Below are positions 47,969-53,651 of a stretch of DNA of 64,000 bases, piece after piece. Positions within the stretch are counted from its first letter, which is position 1; every line of letters starts with the position of its first letter. Source of the stretch: Marmoricola sp. (GTDB lineage Bacteria; Actinomycetota; Actinomycetes; Propionibacteriales; Nocardioidaceae); assembly GCA_025965195.1 (NCBI GenBank), contig JAOPXK010000086.1, forward strand, positions 1 to 64,000, read 5' to 3'. The position numbers and the translations under genes are program-made. Below the pieces are notes generated by a model, which saw nothing but the letters and a program-made list of their open reading frames with translations, did no database searches and was not told the origin of the DNA.

Positions 47969-48060
47969 CCGGCACGACCCGTGCGGTCCCGGGGGGCTCG
48001 TGGACGGGCTATCCTTCGAGGCGCACATCTTTGTAACCACTATCTGGATTGGGTGAGGTC

Positions 48061-48822
48061 ATGCCGCTGACGCCTGAGGACGTGAGCAACAAGCGTTTTA
48101 CTCCGGTGCGGCTCCGTGAGGGCTACGACATGGGTGAGGTCGACCAGTTCCTCGACGAGGTCGAGTCCGAACTGGCCAGCCTGATCAAGGAGAACGACGA
48201 CCTCCGCAGCAAGCTCAGCGCTGCCCAGAGGGGTGTCAGTTCCGCGCCCGCCGTACCCGCACCGGCTCCCATCGAGGAGAAGGCTCCCGAGCCGCCGAAG
48301 GTCGAGGCTCCGGCGCCTCCGCCTGTCGCCGCTCCCGCCCCCGTTCCCGAGGTGGTCAGGGTCCACACGGTGGCCGACGCGTCCAGCGCCGCCGCCCGAC
48401 TGCTCGAGATCGCCACGCGTAACGCCGACGAGCTCGTCGACGGCGCCAAGGAAGAGGCCGACAAGATCATCGGCGCGGCTCGCACCAAGGCGGAGCGGCT
48501 CGAGGCCGAGAGCAAGGTCAAGGCCGACCGTCTCGAGTCCGACGCCCGCACCCGCTCGCAGATGCTCGACTCCGAGACCGAGGCTCGCCGCAAGGACGTG
48601 TTCGGCGACATGGACAAGGAGAAGCTCAAGCTCGACGGCGAGATCGAGAACCTTCGCGCGTTCGAGCGGGAGTACCGCAGCCGCCTGAAGAGCTACTTCA
48701 GCCAGCAGCTCGAAGCTCTCGACGGCAACGGCGAAGGCGGCACCCTCGCGGGCGCCACCTCCGAGCACTCCCCGAAGCGGTTGAAGTCGATCCTCGGTGA
48801 CGAGGACCAGACAAAGCCCTGA
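48061..48822 (+). CDS. divIVA: DivIVA/Wag31 polar growth protein
   Basis: MPLTPEDVSNKRFTPVRLREGYDMGEVDQFLDEVESEL; long coiled coil. Confidence 0.95.
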   Translation: MPLTPEDVSNKRFTPVRLREGYDMGEVDQFLDEVESELASLIKENDDLRSKLSAAQRGVSSAPAVPAPAPIEEKAPEPPKVEAPAPPPVAAPAPVPEVVRVHTVADASSAAARLLEIATRNADELVDGAKEEADKIIGAARTKAERLEAESKVKADRLESDARTRSQMLDSETEARRKDVFGDMDKEKLKLDGEIENLRAFEREYRSRLKSYFSQQLEALDGNGEGGTLAGATSEHSPKRLKSILGDEDQTKP

Positions 48823-48837
48823 TCAGCTGATCAACGC

Positions 48838-48875
48838 AGAAGGGCGGCCATCCCACTCGGGATGACCGCCCTTCT
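48838..48875 (+). terminator. Strong stem-loop downstream of divIVA
   Basis: agaagggcggccatccc-actc-gggatgaccgcccttct; 17-bp arms with one G:T-type mismatch. Confidence 0.8.
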
Positions 48876-48999
48876 CCGTTGAGTTGGGCCCAAATCACAG
48901 TTCACTTGGGCCTCCGCTACATCAGGTCCGTAACCGAGGCCCAACTCGAGGGTGACGGAGGCCCAACTCAACAGCAACGGAGGCCCAACTCAACCGTCA
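48873..48999. repeat. 22-bp-periodic repeat array in opposed orientations (2 inverted + 3 direct units)
   Basis: Direct units 48934-48955, 48956-48977, 48978-48999; inverted units 48873-48894 and 48895-48916. Core GGCCCAACTCAAC is exact in three of the five units. Confidence 0.85.
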
Positions 49000-52580: not shown

Positions 52581-53651
52581 ATGGCTACTCCGAGCAGGAA
52601 ATCTCTCGCGAGCAGGGCAGGCGCCGCCGCGCGGCGGGTCGTCGTCCGGAAGTCGACCGCAGCGGGGCCGGCGAAGGCCGCCCCCAAGACGGCAGCTGCC
52701 AAGAAGGCCACTGCCAAGACGGCAGCCGCGACCAAGGCGCCGGCCAAGAAAGCCGCCGTGAAGGCCGCTGCCAAGAAGGCCCCGGCGAAGAAGGCTCCGG
52801 CCAAGGTCGTCGCCAAGAAGGCAGCCGTGACGAAGGCGCCAGCCAAGAAGACCCCGGTGAAGACACCAGTGAAGGCCGCAGTGAAGAAGGCTCCCACCAA
52901 GACAGCGGTCAAGAAGACTGCCGCGAAGAAGGCAGCTCCGGCCAAGGCCGCGGTCAAGAAGGCTCCCGCGAAGAAGGCAGCGCCTACGAAGCCGGCAGCC
53001 AAGACGACCGCGAAGACCACTGCGAAGACCACTGGTACGGCGAAGTCGACCACCTCCCGGGCATCCGCGACCGCCAAGAAGGCTTCCCCGGCGAAGGCCG
53101 GCACCGCCAAGCCGAGCAGTACGGCGAAGAAGGCCACCCCGACCGCGAAGCGCCCGGCCACCGCGGCCACCTCGGCGGCTCGGCAGGCGGCTGCCCCCGC
53201 CAAACAGGCTGCTGCGGCCGTCCAGAAGGCCGTCCCGGGGGCCCGGAAGGGCTCGCCGGGCGCGCTGGTGGTCCTCCCGTCCGAGACGCCGTGGACCAAG
53301 GATGAGCTCGGCGAGGTCCGCACCCACCTGCGAGGCGACATCAAGCGGCTCGAGATCGACCTCAACATCGCCGAGCGCGACCTGTCGACCCTGATGCGCG
53401 ACGCCGGTGAAGGCGCGGGCAACGACCAGGCCGACGTCGGCTCGGCGACTTTCGAGCGTGACCAGGAGATGACGATCGCCAACAATGCGCGCGACATGCT
53501 CACCCAGTCGGTGCATGCTCTCGAGCGGATTGCCGATGGTTCGTTCGGCGTGTGTGAGAGCTGTGGCTTGCCCATTGGCAAGAACAGATTGATGGCTTTC
53601 CCACGTGCGACAATGTGCATGTCATGCAAGCAGCGCGAGGAGCGTCGCTGA
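52581..53651 (+). CDS. DksA/TraR-type zinc-finger protein with long histone-H1-like Lys/Ala/Pro-rich N-terminus
   Basis: N-terminal AKKAPAKKAPAKV-type repeats; C-terminal [37 protein letters not shown]. Confidence 0.88.
   Translation: MATPSRKSLASRAGAAARRVVVRKSTAAGPAKAAPKTAAAKKATAKTAAATKAPAKKAAVKAAAKKAPAKKAPAKVVAKKAAVTKAPAKKTPVKTPVKAAVKKAPTKTAVKKTAAKKAAPAKAAVKKAPAKKAAPTKPAAKTTAKTTAKTTGTAKSTTSRASATAKKASPAKAGTAKPSSTAKKATPTAKRPATAATSAARQAAAPAKQAAAAVQKAVPGARKGSPGALVVLPSETPWTKDELGEVRTHLRGDIKRLEIDLNIAERDLSTLMRDAGEGAGNDQADVGSATFERDQEMTIANNARDMLTQSVHALERIADGSFGVCESCGLPIGKNRLMAFPRATMCMSCKQREERR

Follow-up and report, generated by a model that had tools for sequence, protein, structure and literature searches.

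The array of 22-bp repeats between divIVA and ileS in the window (the whole 64,000-nt stretch of Marmoricola sp. DNA that was analysed) looks like a selfish or mobile DNA element of an undescribed kind, in a small form that has no gene. It is probably a non-autonomous copy, of the MITE or REPIN kind, of an element that carries an AbiEi-nuclease gene between inverted ends made of 21/22-bp arrays. Elsewhere in the genome a gene of about 300 aa, coding for an AbiEi-type DNA-binding domain together with a Vsr-like endonuclease, lies between inverted copies of such arrays, a link for which we found no description in the open-access literature searched.

The window array consists of five 22-bp units, two facing three, between the terminator hairpin of divIVA and ileS and the ileS stop codon. 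The region is laid out as follows.

48049..48822, + strand: divIVA-like gene, left neighbour (open reading frame; Pfam DivIVA 8.1e-18), stop codon TGA at 48820-48822
48831..48882, no strand: terminator-like hairpin common to divIVA and ileS, arms 48831-48854 and 48859-48882
48878..48899, - strand: left outer 22-bp unit, GTTGAGTTGGGCCCAAATCACA on the + strand
48900..48921, - strand: left inner 22-bp unit, GTTCACTTGGGCCTCCGCTACA on the + strand
48917..48933, no strand: tip between the facing arrays, inner 16-mers 35 nt apart start-to-start
48935..48950, + strand: right inner unit, CGAGGCCCAACTCGAG, 16-nt conserved part
48957..48972, + strand: right middle unit, GGAGGCCCAACTCAAC
48979..48994, + strand: right outer unit, GGAGGCCCAACTCAAC, ending 2 nt before the ileS stop codon
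48997..52143, - strand: ileS, native stop codon (TCA on the + strand) at 48997-48999, adjoining the array

The cores are GTTGAGTTGGGCC (48878-48890) and GTTCACTTGGGCC (48900-48912) in one orientation, and GGCCCAACTCGAG (48938-48950) and twice GGCCCAACTCAAC (48960-48972 and 48982-48994) in the facing one, with a phase of exactly 22 bp on either side of the tip. Allowing up to 2 mismatches, the 64-kb window holds 8 core matches compared to 1.14 expected, a count that 0 of 100 shuffles reach, and five of the eight fall inside the divIVA-ileS array. Core positions and shuffles thus bear out the sequence-only reading from which we started, namely five units at a 22-bp phase, inverted about a tip. 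That reading also had the array occupying nearly the whole gap; it does abut the ileS stop codon, but the gap holds the terminator-like hairpin as well (48831-48882, arms 92% complementary, 4-nt loop), which is an element distinct from the array. The unit is directional, so that reading outward from each gene one meets the stop codon and then GTTGAGTTGGGCCTCC-GTNACC, repeated. Elsewhere in the window (52581-53651, + strand) is a gene for a DksA/TraR-like zinc-finger protein in which the finger follows an Ala/Lys/Pro-rich, histone-H1-like tail of about 200 aa.

Had there been no other copies and no conservation of the phase, the array could have been taken for a local slippage product, a possibility ruled out by copies elsewhere in this genome and in other species. 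The sequence GGCCCAACTCAA occurs in 27 exact copies in the Marmoricola sp. genome (G000), compared to 0 in a reversed control, and sequence models place about 32 arrays there. In most of these, two to four units on one side of a tip face two to five on the other, making a palindrome; about ten are one-directional. When 12 of the palindromes were examined, the inner 16-mers were 35 nt apart (start-to-start) in 7 and 34-36 nt apart in 10; in the remaining 2 the distance was 57, which is 35+22. Arrays of exactly 22 bp are found in many Nocardioidaceae (21 bp in one clade) with species-specific unit sequences: the body of the unit varies by species and sometimes by locus, while the phase and a GTYGAG core are mostly kept. 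At low mismatch, 7 of 119 relatives have exact 22-bp dimers. A set of 84,980 named species genomes gave such dimers in no group other than Nocardioides, Nocardioidaceae MAGs and one Propionibacteriales MAG. The relaxed pattern CYCRAC every 22 nt matches 111 of 346 family genomes, though with an imperfect control, as the reversed pattern for these family-wide searches itself matches CCCAACTCAAC and the background is therefore not clean. For this reason a motif-free scan of one genome, G202, was used instead (649 kb, periods 8-79, with 589 genes called by a simple codon-usage caller). It gave 30 tandem segments at period 22, mostly intergenic, further segments at the multiples 44 and 66, and no intergenic segments at period 21 or 23. 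On contig C13 of the same genome (L233-L265) the arrays have two body types, GTGCTGAAGCTGGCGT and GCGTCATTCGCGCGCA, sometimes mixed within one gap, which suggests two co-resident element families.

The arrays are placed with respect to stop codons. The gene on the outer side of an array run presents its 3′ end to the run in 38 of 51 cases in G000 and 28 of 35 in G202, and the run then lies within -10 to +16 nt of the stop codon in 32 of the 38 and 16 of the 28, respectively. Most array-to-stop distances fall between -5 and +16 nt, and the mode is 2-3. At a distance of -5 the TGA of GTTGAG is the stop codon itself, as at a CRP gene whose protein ends ..RRAR both with and without the array. Two genes in G000 (L169:5044 and L158:5046) run into the array and gain the tails ..TVELGLRDR and ..TVELGLSDR before their stop codons, so arrays can become coding. 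Copies between convergent genes, for which the sequence-only reading had suggested looking, are common; they are not the rule, however, and arrays also lie behind stop codons between co-directional genes.

The likely partner of the arrays emerges from loci where they flank a gene, which is the decisive finding and one that the sequence-only reading, confined to the window, could not have made. At L074 and L163 the gene of about 300 aa, flanked by arrays, has the CRP gene on one side and the next host gene on the other, and the same array-nuclease-array layout is seen in many species and at several host loci (CRP/MBL, SpoU methylase/CysS, the RelA C-terminus and others; 30 loci inspected), the arrays on the two sides being inverted copies. 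We collected 36 distinct AbiEi-REase genes, of which 33 have adjoining 21/22-bp arrays, 27 of them on both sides. At 22 genes, arrays with a 22-bp period stand on both sides, and at 5 on one only; a 21-bp period is found at 6 more, 5 of them flanked on both sides and 1 on a single side; periods of 19, 20 and 23-26 beside the same 36 genes number about zero. Three of the genes lack arrays above threshold, and two of these three, L304 and L336, show degenerate 22-bp-like units by eye. As a null we took the 589 genes of the array-rich contig G202 C13, of which just 1 is flanked on both sides by 22-bp arrays no further than 300 nt away. Class-wide, all 7 homologs at E<=2.4e-100 have adjoining 21/22-bp arrays (5 on both sides); more remote homologs have arrays only sometimes, and many have none. 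The nuclease group at E<=1e-30 is found in 257 of the 346 Nocardioidaceae genomes searched, where not all members are array-linked, and some array-bearing genomes (e.g. G015) have no close nuclease match.

In another actinobacterial family, outside Nocardioidaceae (G418), inverted 22-bp arrays at L435:1240-1343 and 2390-2537 flank an AbiEi-nuclease homolog, with an unrelated, CCGGCCGCGATCATGCAGGTCC-like unit. A similar picture is found around a remote homolog at L428, where the inverted arrays (1208-1363 and 2415-2599) have a 26-bp period, so unit length varies between clades. We also considered the arrays as transposon ends with arbitrary cargo and rejected this: at L058, L067, L072 and L085 arrays about 1 kb apart enclose unrelated host genes, so flanking is meaningful only for the nuclease clade.

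Arrays and nuclease are also coupled in sequence. Units on the two flanks of a nuclease gene match one another at 0.79 compared to 0.55 between loci. Dispersed arrays have units that agree with the nuclease locus in their own genome at 0.86 compared to 0.68 for other genomes (permutation P<1e-4), with the own genome giving the best match in 7 of 9, in a comparison using about four hand-picked units per genome. The nuclease locus of the window's own genome (L163/L299) carries units identical in kind to its dispersed arrays, and the terminal inverted repeats are thus common to the enzyme-bearing element and the dispersed arrays, as in MITEs. Period follows the protein as well, with all six period-21 proteins in one 8-row clade (support 98/93) and 21-bp arrays dispersed in 5 of their 6 genomes (in G195, 48 compared to 0 in the control). 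Co-variation between the wHTH and the unit, though expected, was not seen (Mantel P=0.20 for the N-terminal part; 0.004 for the middle domain).

The protein has an N-terminal AbiEi_4-type wHTH, an AbiEi-like middle and a C-terminal MTES_1575/DUF559 nuclease. The supporting matches are to Pfam AbiEi_4 (to 7e-6), MTES_1575 and DUF559, and to PADLOC AbiEi (to 1.5e-15), those to AbiEi being weak but consistent. Residues D232, E243, D245 and H250 are invariant across 19 proteins, and from what is known of Vsr-like families we take them to be catalytic; the EDxHD nucleases are kin to Vsr. Variation is greatest in the N-terminal part (36% compared to 56% identity). Pfam gave no Y1_Tnp match in the gene between the arrays, and a sequence profile search gave no relative in the PDB; AlphaFold run on a single sequence with no alignment reached a pLDDT of 42 and no usable model. 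Among the gene-called neighbours, judged by eye, we recognised no AbiEii (DUF1814) toxin gene beside the nuclease gene, the neighbours being genes for CRP, MBL-fold proteins, SpoU methylase, CysS and similar host functions.

These observations would fit a full element consisting of a gene for an AbiEi-type wHTH and Vsr-like endonuclease enclosed by a pair of inverted arrays, of 21- or 22-bp units, which would be the ends of the element. A single unit probably serves the protein as one binding site, and we infer that the protein binds the arrays, nicks or cleaves DNA and drives a homing- or repair-like copying of them. Copies would land at the 3′ ends of genes, directly behind or overlapping the stop codon, where they may do least harm; at the window locus the native ileS stop codon would lie on one side of the insertion point and the terminator shared by ileS and divIVA on the other. 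Growth of arrays in 22-bp steps would probably proceed by unequal recombination or slippage. Several results count against this reading: no insertion was captured in a pair of near-identical strains and no target-site duplication was defined, some array-bearing genomes have no close nuclease match and many remote nuclease homologs no arrays, the wHTH and the unit do not co-vary as expected, and the element at the CRP locus looks mostly vertically inherited.

A different explanation is that the arrays belong to the host, with a domesticated AbiEi-REase coating them at gene ends to insulate, to block read-through or to organise the chromosome, and their spread being incidental. The precise placing behind stop codons and the strict phase would suit such a role, as would the DNA-binding domain of the protein and the element at the CRP locus, which looks mostly vertically inherited and is kept in several species. 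However, the positions of the arrays are not conserved between species. The ileS array is found in G000 only, with none in 18 genus relatives, in which IleS ends at about the same residue; disA, pheT and glgP have arrays in G000 and none at 21 orthologous sites read. Position is thus conserved at 0 of 39 orthologous sites, in a comparison between diverged species (IleS identity to the nearest relatives is about 78%, and they are too diverged for junction-level alignment). Moreover, the ileS gap retains its own terminator, and similar hairpins follow ileS in most of the array-free relatives; the protein keeps all its catalytic residues, for which a pure insulator would have no use; and presence across the family is patchy. 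Host ownership therefore seems to us unlikely.

Somewhat more doubtful still is the idea of a homing endonuclease acting on pre-existing repeats, in which arrays spread by other means and palindromic ones are the target, the gene inserting itself at their centre. Fixed-tip palindromic arrays do resemble the empty site of the nuclease-bearing form, and the nuclease is Vsr-like, a fold used by the EDxHD enzymes, which are one of six homing-enzyme families (PMC6083498). The site between the CRP gene and its neighbour is likewise filled in 9 of 24 genus members and unfilled in 15. Yet the unfilled CRP loci have no array at all, just a plain 3′ end, often with a terminator hairpin, so array and nuclease arrive together there. 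The period also tracks the protein clade, so arrays and protein are not independent. At the CRP loci of two species the nuclease genes (L163:5085-5991 and L074:1100-2011) lie in opposite orientations between the same inverted arrays, which suggests, from the arrangement of the sequences, an inversion by recombination between arrays.

The sequence-only reading had proposed that transcripts from either side could fold into a long hairpin, and among its roles were a structured ncRNA and a bidirectional terminator. The window region does fold well (-89 compared to -57 kcal/mol, z -6.9) and many arrays sit between convergent genes. Across 16 palindromes, however, the arms pair no better within elements (27.8/38) than between them (28.3/38; P=0.94), so the fold energy reflects the consensus sequence and the separate terminator hairpin, which contributes much of it, rather than selection on pairing. 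On this covariation test of the arms we rejected the long hairpin and the ncRNA, and one-directional arrays, which are common, cannot form such a hairpin. Nor is there a T-tract, the array region has no Rfam match above threshold, the gap already has a terminator hairpin of its own, and no conserved, co-varying hairpin was found per unit or doublet, where again many arrays are one-directional. A hairpin inside each 22-nt unit can be seen by eye in the units of a few species and is not general. A terminator or structured RNA made by a long hairpin is accordingly very improbable. The pairing result instead favours conservation of single units, as might be expected of DNA-binding sites; of the roles first listed, that of a binding array is the one favoured, single-unit sequence and period being conserved and a likely partner named, while those requiring a hairpin are not supported. 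We give least credence of all to a defence or self-marking role, in which arrays would tether the nuclease to the chromosome or serve as a mark of self while the enzyme attacks array-free DNA: AbiEi and MTES_1575/DUF559-type nuclease domains are found in defence proteins, but none of the loci read showed a recognisable modification enzyme or toxin partner next to the gene, the neighbours are ordinary host genes, and dispersal within a lineage is unnecessary for such a role.

We thus return to the window array as a gene-less copy of the AbiEi-nuclease element. A broader proposal, which we regard as evenly balanced, is that these elements form a new selfish class in Actinomycetes, in which an AbiEi-Vsr-like fusion recognises arrays of 21-26-bp units and places copies of them directly behind stop codons, sometimes along with its own gene and sometimes not, the repeats being species-specific and co-evolving; this would be a second invention of a REPIN/RAYT-like system from unrelated parts. 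If true, it would be a second answer, independent of the first, to a puzzle known mainly from REP/RAYT: how tiny repeats throughout a genome and a nuclease gene in one or a few copies persist together. It would also give a function-bearing context to the large uncharacterised AbiEi-nuclease (DUF559/MTES_1575) group, account for intergenic repeats in many actinobacterial genomes, and offer ready-made pairs of protein and DNA site, varied in sequence and period, for work on specificity.

Several known systems share parts of this picture. The AbiEi type IV antitoxins have the N-terminal wHTH and the AbiEi-like middle, and the inverted repeats that AbiEi of Streptococcus agalactiae binds (in its promoter), like those bound by Rv2827c of M. 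tuberculosis, are 23 bp long (PMC7319586), close in length to the 21-22-bp units here. However, the protein here is fused to a nuclease with no AbiEii toxin gene recognised adjacent, and its repeats are tandem arrays dispersed genome-wide, not just in a promoter. Free-standing EDxHD (Vsr-like) homing endonucleases likewise have a Vsr-like gene at an intergenic site that is filled or unfilled among relatives, but here the gene is flanked by its own dispersed repeat family and has an AbiEi DNA-binding domain, with no intron or intein and a cleavage that is putative. MITEs are similar in that gene-less inverted-repeat copies coexist with a complete copy in which the same ends enclose an enzyme gene, though the ends here are tandem arrays of variable length and there is no DDE transposase. 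The MIRUs of Mycobacterium tuberculosis are tandem, directional, intergenic units of about 46-101 bp that abut stop codons, and in this respect resemble the arrays here in an actinobacterium, whose unit is by contrast 22 bp and, by inspection, unrelated in sequence; we know of no nuclease partner of MIRUs.

The closest parallel is with REP/BIME/REPIN sequences and their RAYT (TnpA-REP), where a nuclease gene in one or a few copies has inverted repeats of its own alongside a population of inverted-repeat copies that lack the gene (PMC3116915). In both systems short extragenic repeats are present in many copies and in inverted pairs with a fixed tip, and the repeats are genome-specific, matching the ones that adjoin a nuclease gene of one or a few copies (PMC3116915). 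In contrast, the nuclease here is AbiEi plus Vsr-like whereas RAYT is an HUH Y1 transposase, the units are 21/22-bp tandem repeats whereas REPs are hairpins with a GTAG tag, and here the arms do not co-vary and the position is tied to stop codons. By this comparison the array-nuclease system behaves like REPIN/RAYT but is not a member of it, differing in nuclease fold, unit structure and tandem nature.
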